This document shows positions 1 to 23,622 of a stretch of DNA of 64,000 bases, in pieces. Both the position numbers and the translations under genes were made by a program. A model generated the notes under the pieces. The model saw only the letters and a list, made by a program, of their open reading frames with translations. It did not search any database and was not told where the DNA came from. This stretch comes from Anaerovorax sp. IOR16 (GTDB lineage: Bacteria > Bacillota > Clostridia > Peptostreptococcales > Anaerovoracaceae), in NCBI RefSeq assembly GCF_017168145.1, contig NZ_JADQTL010000009.1, positions 186,001 through 250,000 on the forward strand. The letters run 5' to 3'. Positions within the stretch are counted from its first letter, which is position 1. Each line of letters begins with the position of its first letter.

Positions 1-66
1 AAAGGCGATGACGCAAAGCTATAGGGGCTAAGGCGAAATGATTGCTATGCCAGCCAGTTGCAGACT
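1..66 (+). ncRNA. Cyclic-di-GMP-I (GEMM) riboswitch, 5' truncated by window edge
   Basis: The conserved GACGCAAAGC core lies at about 10-19, followed by a GGGGCTAA segment, a GGC...GCC hairpin and the GCCAGCCAGTTGC 3' strand. These are the signature elements of the c-di-GMP class I aptamer. The window appears to open inside the GNRA tetraloop of the first stem (AAAGGCGAT), so the 5' strand is missing. It sits upstream of the Tad pilus genes, a common setting for this riboswitch in Clostridia. Class assignment is by motif recognition only. Confidence 0.85.
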
Positions 67-17520: not shown

Positions 17521-17595
17521 TTGTAAAAAAAGGGATGTTTGAGAAATTATGGTGTGTATAACTAAGAAGTACAAGAGACAATGGAGGTATTTATT

Positions 17596-19827
17596 ATGTT
17601 TACACAGTGGGCCGGTTTTGTGCCGGGAGAATGGCAAAAAGAAATCAATGTAAGAGAGTTTATTCAGAAGAATTATACGCCGTATGAGGGCAATGAGGAT
17701 TTCCTTTGTTCTGCAACCAAAAGAACGGAAGAATTGATGCATAAATTAAACAATCTATTTGCTTTAGAGAGAGAATTCGGTGGGGTTCTAGATATAGATA
17801 CGCAAACTGTTACATCACTTTTAAATTATAAACCGGGATATTTAGACAAAGAAAACGAGCTGATTGTTGGTTTGCAAACAGATCGTCCTTTAAAAAGAGG
17901 TGTTAATCCATTTGGCGGTTTGAAAATGACAAGAGATGCCTGCAAAGCATATGGTTATGAATTGTCACGAAAGGTTGAGGATGAATTTCAATATCGTACC
18001 ACACACAATGATGGTGTATTTCGTGTTTATAATGAAACGACAAAAGCAGCCAGACATTGCGGTTTGATTACTGGTTTGCCGGATGCTTACGGAAGAGGAC
18101 GTATCATTGGAGATTATCGCAGAGTTGCTCTTTACGGAATTGATCGATTGATTGAGGAAAAGAAAAAAGATAAAGAAGCCATTGGGGAAGAATTGATGGA
18201 CGTGGATAACATTCGTCAGCTTGAAGAATTATTCCAGCAGATTAATTTCCTTGGTAAGCTAAAAGAGATGGCAGAGATGTATGGGTTTGATATTTCAAAG
18301 CCTGCACAGAACGCGAAAGAAGCAGTACAATGGTTATATTTTGGCTATTTAGGTTCCATTAAGGAACAAAACGGTGCTGCAATGAGTCTTGGAAGAATCA
18401 CAACATTTTTAGATGTTTATTTTGAACGCGATTTAAAAAACGGGGTACTAACCGAATCTGAAGTTCAGGAAATTATGGATGATTTTGTAATAAAGCTTCG
18501 CATGGCCCGTCATCTTCGAACTCCGGATTATAATGAATTGTTCGGCGGCGATCCGATGTGGATTACAGAAGCCATTGGTGGTATGGGTGAGGATGGAAGG
18601 ACATTAGTAACTAAGAATTCCTATCGAATCCTTCATACTCTTTACAATTTAGGTACGTCTGCAGAACCAAATTTAACCGTTCTTTGGTCGAATGATTTAC
18701 CGGAAAATTTTAAACGTTATTGTGCAAAGGTATCTTGCGAAACCGATGCCATTCAATATGAAAATGATGATTTAATGCGTCCTAAATTCGGAGACGATTA
18801 TGCGATTGCTTGCTGTGTTTCTGCAATGCGTGTTGGTAAGGAAATGCAGTTCTTTGGGGCAAGAGCAAACCTTGCAAAGCTGTTGCTGTTGTCTTTAAAT
18901 GGAGGAAAGGACGAAAAGAAAAACGTTCAGGTAGGGCCTGTTTCGGAAAGCTACACGGAAGAATATCTTGATTATGATAAGGTAATTACACTTCTTGATT
19001 TTTATCGTCCATGGATGGCGAAAATGTATGCAAATACTATGAATGTCATTCATTATATGCATGATAAATATGCTTACGAAAAAACACAGATGGCATTGCA
19101 CGATACAAAGGTGCATCGTTATATGTCCTTTGGTGTAGCAGGAATGAGCGTTTTGGCAGATTCCTTATCTGCAATAAAGTATGCAAAGGTAAAATGTATT
19201 CGAGATAAAGAAACTGGTTTAATTTCTGATTTTGAAATCGAAGGAGAATACCCAGCATTCGGAAATGATGATGATCGTGTAGATTCCATCGCCTGTGAAC
19301 AAATGGAACTTTTCTTCAAGGAATTACAAAAAACACCTCTTTATAAGGATGCAGAACACACATTGTCCATTTTAACAATAACTTCAAATGTAGTATATGG
19401 GAAGAAGACAGGCTCAACACCGGATGGAAGAAAAGCAGGAGAAGCATTTGCACCAGGAGCGAATCCAATGCATGGAAGAGAGAAAAACGGAGCATTAGCT
19501 GCACTCAATTCGATTGCGAAGATTTCGTATGAGTACTGTAAGGATGGCATTTCCAATACATTCTCAATTGTACCGGAAGCACTTGGAAAGACGGAGAGTG
19601 AAAGAATCTCAAATTTAGTGGCACTTTTAGAAGGATATTTTGCGCAGATGGCACATCACATTAATGTGAATGTATTGAATCGTGAAACGTTGTTAGAAGC
19701 TTATGAAAATCCAGAAAAATATCCGAATTTAACCATTCGTGTTTCCGGATATGCTGTAAATTTCTATAAGCTGACAAAGGAACAGCAGAGGGAAGTAATC
19801 TCTCGTACCTTCCATCAGAGCGTGTGA
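17596..19827 (+). CDS. pflB: Pyruvate formate-lyase
   Basis: A 743-aa glycyl radical enzyme converting pyruvate and CoA to acetyl-CoA and formate. The catalytic Cys-Cys pair is in [11 protein letters not shown] (near residue 404) and the glycyl-radical loop is RVSGYAVNF (near residue 718). The start is ATG 17596, because GGAGG at 17583-17587 is its ribosome binding site and would lie within the longer reading from 17581. It is directly behind a ZTP riboswitch and followed by its activase, so formate for one-carbon metabolism is the regulated output. Confidence 0.95.
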
Positions 19828-19835
19828 GGTGATTT

Positions 19836-20555
19836 ATGCTAGGGAGAATACATTCCTTTCAATCTATGGGAGCGGTGGATGGTCCGGGACTTCGGTATGT
19901 CGTGTTTATGCAGGGTTGTCCGCTTCGCTGTGCCTATTGTCACAATCCCGATACTTGGGATAGCAGCAGTGGAACTCTTTATGAAGTGGATGAAGTGGTA
20001 AAGAAGATTTTGAGATACCGTCCATATTTTCAAAAGAATGGGGGTGTCACCGTTACAGGAGGAGAACCTCTTTTACAGATCGATTTTATAACACAACTAT
20101 TCAAAAGATTAAAAGAAGAGGGGATTCATACTGCTTTGGATACCTCAGGTATTGGCTGTACAGATACGGAAAAGATAAAAAAAGTTTTCTCGTATACTGA
20201 TTTGATATTATGTGATGTGAAATTCCTTTCCGAAGGAGGATATCAAGAGTATTGCAGAGGGAGCTTTAAAACGGTTTGTTCTTTTTTGGAGCTTATGAAA
20301 GAGCAAAAGAAACCGTTTTGGGTACGCAATGTAATCGTTCCTGGTCTTACCGATGCAAAGGAACACATTCAAAAACTTGGTGCATTTTTAAATCAATATC
20401 CTGATTTGGAAAAAATAGAGCTTTTGCCGTTTCGTAAGCTTTGTTTGGAAAAATATCAGACACTTGGCATTTCATTTCCATTCGAGAAGGTACCGGAGAT
20501 GAAGAGTGATGATGTAAAAAAATTGTATCAATATTTAGATCGTAATATAAACTAA
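19836..20555 (+). CDS. pflA: Pyruvate formate-lyase activating enzyme
   Basis: A 239-aa radical SAM enzyme that installs the glycyl radical on PflB. The cluster motif is CPLRCAYC (CxxxCxxC), preceded by SMGAVDGPGLRYVVFMQG and followed by GGVTVTGGEPLLQ, typical of PflA. It starts 8 bp after pflB with GAGGTGA as ribosome binding site. The transcript probably ends at the hairpin at 20586. Confidence 0.95.
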   Translation: MLGRIHSFQSMGAVDGPGLRYVVFMQGCPLRCAYCHNPDTWDSSSGTLYEVDEVVKKILRYRPYFQKNGGVTVTGGEPLLQIDFITQLFKRLKEEGIHTALDTSGIGCTDTEKIKKVFSYTDLILCDVKFLSEGGYQEYCRGSFKTVCSFLELMKEQKKPFWVRNVIVPGLTDAKEHIQKLGAFLNQYPDLEKIELLPFRKLCLEKYQTLGISFPFEKVPEMKSDDVKKLYQYLDRNIN

Positions 20556-20950: not shown

Positions 20951-22288
20951 ATGAAACAGAGTATGGAAGAACCAAATGAACAAAATGATGCATTTTCGAG
21001 TAACTTGATTGCAATCCGAAGAGAACTGCATCGCTATCCCGAGTTGGGGTGGCAGGAATATCGTACAACAGCACGCATTATCGAGCATCTTGAAAAATGG
21101 GGTGTGGAATATCATTTTGGAAAGGAAATTCTTGATGCAGAGCTACGAAGGGGATTTCCGGATGAAAGCAATGATAAAAAAGCAGTGGAACGTGCAATTA
21201 AAGAAACCGGACGTGAAGATTTAATCGAAAAAATGACAGGCGGTTTTACTGGGGTCATTGCAGTAATTAAAGGAGAAAAAACAAGAAGTTTAAAAGCGCC
21301 TACTATCTTGCTTCGCTTTGATATCGATGCAAACGAGCTTCAAGAATGCATGAGTGAAGAGCATCGTCCTTATAGAGAAGATTTTGTATCTCAACATTCT
21401 GGGGTTATGCATGCCTGCGGGCACGATGGTCATGTGGCAATTGGATTAGGTGTGATAAAACAGCTGCAGGAAAATAGAGAATTGTTTTGTGGTGAAATAC
21501 GTGTATTGTTTCAGCCAGCAGAGGAGGAAGTTCGTGGAGCAGTTGCATTTGCGCAAACGGAATTGACGAAGGGTGTCGATTATATGCTTTCCGGACATAT
21601 CGGACTAAAAGCAAATCGTTTGGGAATGATTGCAGCTGCCACAACAGAATTTTTGGCAACGACGAAAATAAAGGTAACCTTTTATGGGAAATCTTCTCAT
21701 GCAGGGAATTGTCCGCAAGCTGGACAAAACGCTTTAGCTGCTGCTTGTAATGCTACATTGAATATCTTGGGAATTTCACGTCATAGTGAAGGGATTAGCC
21801 GCGTTAATGTCGGGACATTATGTGCGGATGGACCTACCAACGTCATACCGGATTATGCTATTTTGGTATTAGAAACAAGAGGCAGTACAGATGAAGTCAA
21901 CCAATATATGCAAAAGCAAGTTGAGACCATTTGTGAAGGTGCCGCAACCATGGAGGGCTGTGACTATAAGATAGAAATTGTAGGAGGTGCAGGCTGTGCG
22001 CAATGCAACGATGAATTAGCAGAATTTGTTGCAGAGCAAGCGAGCACCATACCTTTTTTCAAAGAAGTCATTGATGAATTGGAATTTAGCGCGAGCGAGG
22101 ATGTAACCGAGCTTATAAATGCAGTTTCCGATAATGGCGGAAAAGCAACCTATATGCTTATTGGCAGTACATTAAGTGCGCCACATCATAACGATCATTT
22201 TGATTTTGACGAAGCTGTTTTGGCTCCGGCGGCAAAATTATTTTTTGAAAGCATTCTCGCATTATGCGAAGAAAGGTCACAGGATTGA
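20951..22288 (+). CDS. M20 family amidohydrolase, AbgA-like
   Basis: A 445-aa M20D metallopeptidase. ELHRYPELGWQEYRT, the VMHACGHDGHVA metal motif, FQPAEEEVRGA and the lid region HAGNCPQAGQNAL are typical; the insert DAELRRGFPDE is characteristic of p-aminobenzoyl-glutamate hydrolase-like (AbgA) members. It probably removes an amino acid from an N-acyl or aminobenzoyl conjugate. Its last 94 bp overlap the convergent antiporter gene. AAGGAG precedes the ATG. Confidence 0.85.
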   Translation: MKQSMEEPNEQNDAFSSNLIAIRRELHRYPELGWQEYRTTARIIEHLEKWGVEYHFGKEILDAELRRGFPDESNDKKAVERAIKETGREDLIEKMTGGFTGVIAVIKGEKTRSLKAPTILLRFDIDANELQECMSEEHRPYREDFVSQHSGVMHACGHDGHVAIGLGVIKQLQENRELFCGEIRVLFQPAEEEVRGAVAFAQTELTKGVDYMLSGHIGLKANRLGMIAAATTEFLATTKIKVTFYGKSSHAGNCPQAGQNALAAACNATLNILGISRHSEGISRVNVGTLCADGPTNVIPDYAILVLETRGSTDEVNQYMQKQVETICEGAATMEGCDYKIEIVGGAGCAQCNDELAEFVAEQASTIPFFKEVIDELEFSASEDVTELINAVSDNGGKATYMLIGSTLSAPHHNDHFDFDEAVLAPAAKLFFESILALCEERSQD

Positions 22289-23466
22289 TTCTCTTTTGTA
22301 AGCAATCTTGTATAAGTGGCGTCAATACTGAAAGCACCAATTGGTGCAGTCAATAATATGGAAAGAACGGCAACGGTTAGTACAAGTTGACCACAGGGCA
22401 GACCCATGGAAAGTGGTATGCTTCCAATGGCGGCCTGCACCGTTGCTTTTGGTGTATAAGAAAGCATTGTAAAAATTCGTTCCTTGACAGTAAAATTTGT
22501 TTTAATGAGACAGAAGGCAACTCCAATCATACGAACGATGAGTGCTGCAAAAATAAGCAGAACTGCAGTAAAACCCGCCGACATTGCATAATTCAAATCA
22601 ACGATAGCTCCAACTAAGACAAATAAAATGACTTCAGCAGCAACCCAGAGCTTGTTATATTTTACAGAAAGCAGCTCTGCTGTCTCGCTGTTAAATTTAT
22701 TTAGGGCAATGCCCATACTCATGATTGCCAAAAGACCGGAGAATGGAATGAACCCTTTGATTGCTTGCTCTAATGCAATCATCAGAAATGACAGACTAAG
22801 AAGATTTATAACTTTTACCGAATCTCGTGTATGAAACTTTTGAAAGAATCGACTGAGAAGGTACCCGCAAATAGCGCCAAAAGCAATACCGAGAAGGATG
22901 GAAATCGGAATGTTAATGAAGTTTTGTGCTTCAATTCCTTTTCCACTAGCCAAAGCGACAAAAGAAGTAAATAGAACAATTACAAAAACATCGTCAACGG
23001 ATGCTCCGGCTAATACAAGCTGGGGTATGCTTTTTTTAGTGCCGTAACCTTCATGAATTAAGCGAATCATTCGAGGAACAATGATTGCGGGAGAAACGGC
23101 TGCAAGTACACTTCCCAAGATTGCAGCTTCCAATGTGGAAATTCCAAATAACAATGGGGCAAAAATAGAAATGGCTATAATTTCAAAGCTTGCAGGAACA
23201 AAACACATGAGAAATGCTGGGCGGCCAACTTTTTTTAGGTCTTCCAAACGCAGGGAAAGACCGGCACGTGTTAAAATGATAACCAATGCCAATTGACGAA
23301 GATCCGCTGAAATGGAAAGAATCGACGAATCGAGTAAGTTAAAGAAAGAAGGGCCTAAAAGTATTCCGGAAAGGAGCATCCCAAGCAAACTTGGCAGTTT
23401 GATTTTTTGAAAAACCCAACCTAAGAGTAAACCCAATAAAAAAATATACGCTAGACTTGTTAACAT
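22195..23466 (-). CDS. Cation:proton antiporter (CPA/NhaP-like), fluoride-regulated
   Basis: A 423-aa integral membrane antiporter with about 12 helices: KLPSLLGMLLSGILLGP at the start, AVSPAIIVPRMIRLIHEG, and LVLAGASVDDVFVIVLFTSF with the paired acidic residues of the ion site. The 31-residue tail (SCDLSSHNARMLSKNN...) lies in the overlap with the M20 gene. A fluoride riboswitch precedes it, and antiporters of this family are known members of fluoride regulons. F-/H+ exchange or ion homeostasis under fluoride stress is the inference. AGGAGG lies before the start. Confidence 0.85.
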   Translation of the reverse strand: MLTSLAYIFLLGLLLGWVFQKIKLPSLLGMLLSGILLGPSFFNLLDSSILSISADLRQLALVIILTRAGLSLRLEDLKKVGRPAFLMCFVPASFEIIAISIFAPLLFGISTLEAAILGSVLAAVSPAIIVPRMIRLIHEGYGTKKSIPQLVLAGASVDDVFVIVLFTSFVALASGKGIEAQNFINIPISILLGIAFGAICGYLLSRFFQKFHTRDSVKVINLLSLSFLMIALEQAIKGFIPFSGLLAIMSMGIALNKFNSETAELLSVKYNKLWVAAEVILFVLVGAIVDLNYAMSAGFTAVLLIFAALIVRMIGVAFCLIKTNFTVKERIFTMLSYTPKATVQAAIGSIPLSMGLPCGQLVLTVAVLSILLTAPIGAFSIDATYTRLLTKENQSCDLSSHNARMLSKNNFAAGAKTASSKSK

Positions 23467-23489
23467 AAAAAAATACCTCCTAAAACGCA

Positions 23490-23534
23490 GAAAAAGCTGA
23501 CACTTCCTGCGATAAAATCACAGAAGTCATCAGC
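23490..23534 (-). terminator. Expression-platform terminator of the fluoride riboswitch
   Basis: On the minus strand GCTGATGACTTC (23534-23523) pairs with GAAGTGTCAGC, closed by TTTTT (23495-23491). Its 5' arm is the aptamer's pseudoknot strand, so fluoride binding should block termination. Confidence 0.8.
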
Positions 23535-23590
23535 TTAATTACGCGGTTTTAGTGAAGTATGTTCACTAAGGGAGAACTTCATTCCCAAAG
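23519..23590 (-). ncRNA. Fluoride (crcB) riboswitch with an inserted hairpin
   Basis: On the minus strand GGGAATGAAGTTCTCCC forms P1, whose loop GAAGT can pair with ACTTC in the 3' segment GCTGATGACTTCT. The junction AACCGC and the GCTGATGAC strand are the conserved crcB-motif blocks. Between P1 and AACCGC lies an extra hairpin (AGTGAA...TTCACT) not needed by the minimal motif. The pseudoknot complementarity and the overlapping terminator make the call strong. Confidence 0.8.
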
Positions 23591-23622
23591 AATACTATAT
23601 CTAATTCGTCGGAATCTGTCAA

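Follow-up and report, generated by a model that had tools for sequence, protein, structure and literature searches.

The stretch of DNA analysed here (the window) comprises 64,000 nucleotides of the Anaerovorax sp. IOR16 genome (G000:C9:186001-250000; genome of 3.38 Mb, 95.6% complete) and carries a match to the fluoride riboswitch family RF01734 upstream of an antiporter gene. We conclude, with a probability of about 0.92, that this is a crcB-class fluoride riboswitch that acts by antitermination to switch on an NHA2-like antiporter. An earlier note on this DNA had proposed that a CPA-superfamily antiporter is preceded by a fluoride riboswitch into which a hairpin is inserted, and this is borne out. 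All riboswitch elements and the antiporter gene lie on the minus strand:

23594-23622, minus strand: sigma-70-type promoter, TTGACA-17-TATAGT (11 of 12 consensus matches)
23514-23595, minus strand: fluoride riboswitch aptamer (RF01734 match, 38.8 bits, gathering score 34)
23570-23586, minus strand: P1 hairpin, GGGA-AUGAAGUUC-UCCC (alignment and direct reading; near-identical P1 in hairpin-type relatives)
23549-23569, minus strand: inserted hairpin, UUAGUGAA-CAUAC-UUCACUAA, an optional stem between P1 and P3 (folding against shuffles; covariation in relatives)
23543-23548, minus strand: conserved joining segment AACCGC (cmscan alignment and direct reading)
23523-23534, minus strand: GCUGAUGACUUC, comprising the P3 3' strand, the conserved UGAUGAC and the pseudoknot 3' half ACUUC (alignment and direct reading)
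23491-23536, minus strand: intrinsic terminator with U-tract, mutually exclusive with P3 and the pseudoknot (-20.7 kcal/mol)
23476-23481, minus strand: Shine-Dalgarno sequence AGGAGG, inside a segment able to pair with AACCGC and the 3' arm of the insert (duplex -17.2 kcal/mol)
22195-23466, minus strand: antiporter of 423 aa, Na_H_Exchanger family PF00999, nearest solved structure NHA2 (SLC9B2) (profile and structure-database matches)

Aptamer, terminator and antiporter

The RF01734 search, set beforehand as a check, gave a match at 23595-23514 (Rfam cmscan) that exceeds the gathering score by 4.8 bits, with an E-value of 3.2e-07 when the whole window was searched and 1.1e-09 for a 221-base stretch; a genome-wide search found it to be the single match in the host genome. 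P1 is formed by GGGA (23586-23583) and UCCC (23573-23570), and its loop supplies the 5' half of the pseudoknot, GAAGU (23580-23576), the partner of which, ACUUC, lies at 23527-23523. The other family features, AACCGC, UGAUGAC and P3 (with one mismatch), are present as well. P1, the GAAGT/ACTTC complementarity, AACCGC, the GCUGAUGAC segment and the inserted hairpin, all named in the earlier note, can be read directly from the minus strand.

The TTGACA-17-TATAGT promoter, directly upstream of P1, outranks all other promoter-like sites of a 1.6-kb stretch, which number 8 in total against an average of 3.7 in shuffles. From its spacing, transcription would be expected to start around position 23586, the first base of P1. 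The 134-nt leader folds 5.9 standard deviations below its own shuffles, none of which was as good (0 of 200).

The terminator stem consists of AAGCUGAUGACUUCUGUGAU, which holds the 3' strands of P3 and the pseudoknot, paired with AUCGCAGGAAGUGUCAGCUU and followed by the U-tract. The expression platform reuses the P3/pseudoknot strand, and GCUGAUGACUUC doubles as part of the terminator 5' arm. Since the aptamer and terminator folds exclude each other, fluoride binding should permit readthrough. Without fluoride, AAGCUGAUGACUUCUGUGAU would leave the aptamer and become the 5' arm of the strong terminator, so that transcription would end ahead of the gene. In the presence of Mg2+ and fluoride, AAGCUGAUGACUUCUGUGAU would be locked by P1, P3 and the GAAGU/ACUUC pseudoknot, no terminator would form, and the antiporter would be made. 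The latter would probably counteract the acid burden and the disturbed ion balance resulting from entry of hydrogen fluoride. The accessible text of PMC13273304 and PMC2864571 describes this design for the class: a terminator that reuses the pseudoknot strand, in a switch that is ON with fluoride.

The gene product scores 151.9 bits against PF00999 (gathering score 26.2, E 2.9e-44) and belongs to that family. Its closest match in the Protein Data Bank is NHA2/SLC9B2 (7b4l and others, E 5.1e-44); residues 12-395 align to NHA2 129-524, and the two share the DD motif and PKATVQAAIGS. The window antiporter differs from NHA2 in being bacterial, in lacking the long N-terminal part and in being under riboswitch control. 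Among 101 aligned relatives, Asp158 and Asp159 are each conserved in 100, and Lys340, in PKATVQ, is conserved in 99 and falls in a gap in 2; the double aspartate and the lysine, which we take to be ion-site residues, also occur in NHA2. Curated NCBIfam cut-offs were missed for both TIGR00932 (CPA2; 52.9 versus 238.3 bits) and NF003716 (K+/H+ antiporter; 68.6 versus 355 bits), and we use the label CPA2-like because of the likeness to NHA2 and the DD motif. The 3' end of the antiporter open reading frame overlaps a convergent M20-type amidohydrolase open reading frame (20951-22288, plus strand) tail to tail by 94 bases (22195-22288). Full-length antiporter relatives match up to around residue 382-413 of 423.

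Relatives and published fluoride-riboswitch antiporters

RF01734 searches of 296 genomes of the family, 393 of the order and 348 of the phylum returned matches at E ≤0.001 in 30, 119 and 141 genomes, with 20, 111 and 120 genomes, respectively, above the cut-off, and antiporter relatives were additionally fetched from named genomes (28 loci). The parsed set contains 142 aptamer loci, 52 of the hairpin type described below and 90 others. It excludes loci L050-L058, which were below the cut-off in the family search and did not resemble full aptamers; the second aptamers of genomes G360 and G251 and those of G445 and G400 were above the cut-off and outside the fetched set. Loci L140 and L023 represent one contig. 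We scored a terminator as overlapping the aptamer when a hairpin of -7 kcal/mol or lower has its start in the aptamer 3' strand and its end at four or more consecutive T. By this script criterion, the overlap is present in 50 of the 52 hairpin-type loci and 85 of the 90 others, i.e., in 135/142 loci overall, as opposed to 21-27/142 with shuffled downstream sequence.

Scanning of 20 loci of orthologous antiporters showed that 11 reach the RF01734 cut-off. Conversely, an antiporter of the same family lies downstream in 85 of the 124 aptamer loci from the family and order searches that have a scorable open reading frame, a count that leaves out the window and 16 aptamer loci fetched via their antiporter. 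The longest reading frame per locus was scored; several CrcB genes fell at first into other clusters and were later recognised by their PF02537 matches.

The earlier note took the locus to link a CPA-type antiporter to fluoride resistance, but an association of fluoride riboswitches with such antiporters is not new. PMC11139923, citing Baker 2012, states in its accessible text that Na+/H+ antiporters are the next-most common fluoride-riboswitch genes after exporters, and the corresponding part of PMC11477304 describes a Clostridioides difficile fluoride-riboswitch operon that includes an NhaP-type antiporter. This operon, CD0656-7, resembles our locus in pairing a fluoride riboswitch with a cation/proton antiporter. 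As far as that text goes, the antiporter there follows a CLC-type protein, whereas it is the sole gene of the unit here; moreover, while the C. difficile operon contains the CLC protein, neither CrcB nor a CLC-F-like gene was found in the Anaerovorax host genome. The antiporter link is already in print and, with hairpin and link both recurrent, the interpretation in the earlier note is only partly supported and the locus is an example of an essentially known system.

Two relatives deserve separate mention. L018 (Enterocloster hominis) retains, upstream of 2501, a terminator-like GCTGATGACTTCTGC...GTCAGC with no recognisable P1 or AACCGC, and judging from its letters is apparently a decayed fluoride aptamer. 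Genome G360 contains a tandem pair of fluoride aptamers approximately 40 nt apart (G360:C32:97200-97369, partly in L082).

The inserted hairpin

The insert (23569-23549) is located between P1 and AACCGC and forms a perfect 8-bp stem with a 5-nt loop; none of 300 shuffles of it folds as well. In 90 of the 142 loci, mostly of a GGYG-AUGG type, usually only 2-4 nt separate P1 from the AACCGC-like segment (exceptions of this type include L040 and L096). The other 52 loci, among them the window, have a GG(G/A)(A/G)-AUGA start and about 12 or more nt at this place. We cut 44 distinct inserts by script and read the six remaining hairpin-type loci, together with L003, by eye. In 40 of the 44 inserts the fold is more stable than in 95% of 300 shuffles each, with a mean of -3.0 versus -0.4 kcal/mol; those missing the mark are L010 and L013 (5.3%), L161 (17%) and L003, for which the cut was incomplete.

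For covariation analysis we used ten of the 11 distinct 14-nt inserts, excluding L125, which has a different P1. In this set, 95% of the stem cells are paired, and both sides change in three of the four stem pairs. All 500 shuffles and the slid controls score lower in three measures: paired cells, cells with a change at both positions of the pair, and covariation score. In the wider phylum sample, we fetched 20 long aptamers from 38 phylum matches that span at least 71 nt among the matches listed, window apart; 17 show a hairpin at this position by eye, and L165, L171 and L172 do not. The genes below these 20, assigned by tblastn, are 10 antiporters, 4 CrcB, 1 CLC-type protein and 5 without assignment. 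The 40 of 44 well-folding inserts, the compensatory stem changes and the 17 of 20 long phylum aptamers show that the inserted hairpin is a common, covarying optional stem in the order and phylum. The earlier note had called the layout a variant; the hairpin itself is real, but it is not peculiar to the RNA of the window.

We considered whether the hairpin goes with a particular gene or aptamer type and rejected both ideas. An antiporter is downstream in 35 of the 52 hairpin-type loci (17 of these being the window and the 16 loci fetched via their antiporter), with CrcB or CLC-type genes in others. Likewise, the hairpin is not confined to the GGGA/AUGA type, as it is also found in GGCG/GGTG aptamers (L166, L169, L175, L179, L182 and L184, by eye, and L040 and L096). 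Most likely, the hairpin closes the joining region as a peripheral helix, which would leave ligand and switching logic unchanged. The stems of the aptamer are named P1 and P3 in the accessible text of PMC13273304 and PMC11077080, the latter placing a J1/2 joint between them, while that of PMC8004769 names the stems P1 and P2 and calls the pseudoknot P3; because of this difference, the naming gives a mere hint of a P2 at the insert site. Our literature search, the scope of which excluded most subscription papers and figures, found no publication on this hairpin.

Alternative readings and the role of the antiporter

Several observations weigh against the assignment as a fluoride switch with an extra stem. 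The RF01734 margin is small, and P3 is a weak helix with one mismatch (G-C, C-G, mismatch, U-A in the cmscan alignment); the weak P3 and the insert probably account for the modest score. A simple terminator scan of the stretch did not list the terminator at 23536-23491. The thermodynamic fold of the leader retains P1 and loses P3 and the inserted hairpin, the 3' arm of which pairs elsewhere, in a program that handles neither pseudoknots nor ligand. With respect to covariation, two of the five measures fall within the shuffles, namely the number of pairs changed on both sides (166 of 500 as high) and the number of pair types (465 of 500); close relatives account for three of the ten sequences. 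A more radical possibility is that the insert and the altered P1 letters change the ligand, yielding a variant aptamer for something besides fluoride. The letters of P1 and the pseudoknot do depart from the GGYG/AUGG type. Compared with the RF01734 aptamers of Bacillus cereus and Thermotoga petrophila, the RNA of the window has GGGA/UCCC in P1, GAAGU/ACUUC in the pseudoknot and the extra covarying hairpin, which those two aptamers are not known to carry between P1 and P3. However, P1, P3, the pseudoknot, AACCGC, UGAUGAC and a terminator overlapping the pseudoknot strand are common to all of them. In addition, CrcB is encoded just downstream of the hairpin-type aptamers L039, L041, L042, L047, L048, L125, L161 and L163 (PF02537 matches), as are CLC-type genes downstream of L139, L152, L154 and L178, and we regard a different ligand as highly improbable.

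Within the fluoride riboswitch reading, the insert could have an additional task. Its 3' arm together with AACCGC might also act as an anti-Shine-Dalgarno arm, making the RNA a dual switch within the same riboswitch class, a proposal that we find rather doubtful. At low fluoride, transcripts that read through would fold the arm onto UGCGUUUUAGGAGGUAU and block translation; with fluoride, AACCGC and the hairpin would be locked and UGCGUUUUAGGAGGUAU freed, and we hold both steps with the same reserve. The minimum free energy fold of the full leader (-43.4 kcal/mol) pairs the arm with UGCGUUUUAGGAGGUAU, the Shine-Dalgarno sequence being paired with it at probability 1.0, and forcing the aptamer leaves the six Shine-Dalgarno bases unpaired at probabilities of 0.17 to 0.81, i.e., still partly paired. 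Shuffling the Shine-Dalgarno segment gives a duplex as good as the isolated one (-17.2 kcal/mol) in 7 of 5000 cases, and shuffling the arm does so in 31 of 5000; when partners are swapped, the duplex takes rank 1 of 35 in both directions. L004, the antiporter of which is 66% identical, can pair in a similar way at -14.1 kcal/mol, with 65 and 131 of 5000 shuffles as good and ranks 3 and 1 of 35. The pairing is, however, not conserved: over 35 hairpin-type leaders, the mean is -6.9 kcal/mol with own and -6.7 kcal/mol with swapped partners (p 0.24). These leaders derive from 51 rows, from which we dropped L010 and L145 (no U-tract), L140 (duplicate) and further leaders in which the start or the joining segment was unclear or a long gap occurred. 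Furthermore, transcripts that terminate do not contain the Shine-Dalgarno site, and part of the complementarity may stem from the common CUGCG and AAACCGC words. Because the leader comparison shows no advantage of own over swapped partners, it rejects a general anti-Shine-Dalgarno role across the hairpin type, and the pairing is at most a local second layer of control. As a separate observation, several leaders (L004, L013, L015, L026, L027 and L134) repeat a TTTCTGC(G)-like word after the terminator U-tract; this word is complementary to the terminator 3' arm and might give rise to another alternative hairpin beside the Shine-Dalgarno sequence.

A different question is whether the antiporter replaces dedicated fluoride exporters as the main fluoride defence, either by proton/cation exchange or even by transporting fluoride itself. 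We consider this possible, at clearly less than even odds. No CrcB was found in the host genome at its 95.6% completeness, and the only CLC protein found there has a GSGIPQ motif and shares 22-29% identity with riboswitch-run CLC proteins. The latter have GNNLI in place of GSGIPQ in 3 of 5 examined (the pattern gave nothing in 2), and we take the GNN motif to mark fluoride-type CLCs. Our samples include one other genome of the genus, G088; it has two adjacent CrcB genes and no RF01734 match, and its best antiporter relative is 25% identical, so that there is no close copy. In the order, CrcB is present in 8 of 79 genomes with a riboswitch-run antiporter (twice as fragments), all at least 90% complete after six less complete ones were dropped. 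The corresponding number is 118 of all 393 order genomes and hence 110 of the 314 outside the antiporter set (Fisher p 7.6e-06, phylogeny ignored); this comparison takes the 393 as the same order sample as in the RF01734 search, and the 314 include a few less complete antiporter genomes. A relative of the riboswitch-run CLC protein P0001 (at least 34% identity over at least 390 aa) occurs in 22 of the 79, and in 7 further genomes the match is weaker or broken (E <1e-18). Counting doubtful cases as present, 42 of the 79 have neither CrcB nor any CLC-F candidate. On the other side, the CrcB counts ignore phylogeny, many genomes are drafts, and exporter families beyond the known ones may exist. 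Genomes G355, G391 and G399 have both CrcB and the antiporter, each under an aptamer. The Asp-Asp pair and the lysine are kept in nearly all aligned relatives, which favours cation/proton exchange over fluoride transport. The counts are in line with the published view that relief of acid and ion stress is the task of the antiporter, and they would also allow it to substitute for an exporter. The combination of both proposals, in which the antiporter has replaced CrcB/CLC-F in many genomes of the order including the host (by exchange alone or by fluoride transport) and the hairpin of the window serves as anti-Shine-Dalgarno arm in two layers of control, appears improbable to us.

Elsewhere in the window, a ZTP riboswitch (RF01750; 17412-17495, plus strand, 63.5 bits) lies just upstream of an open reading frame that reads as pyruvate formate-lyase-like (17581-19827), followed by a putative activating-enzyme-like one (19836-20555). 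A c-di-GMP-I riboswitch (1-65, plus strand, 49.4 bits) is cut by the window start.

As a fluoride riboswitch, the locus mainly confirms a known system. The covarying optional hairpin is a possible addition to the aptamer model. The tendency of riboswitch-run antiporters to occur without CrcB makes fluoride defence by the antiporter alone a directly testable question.

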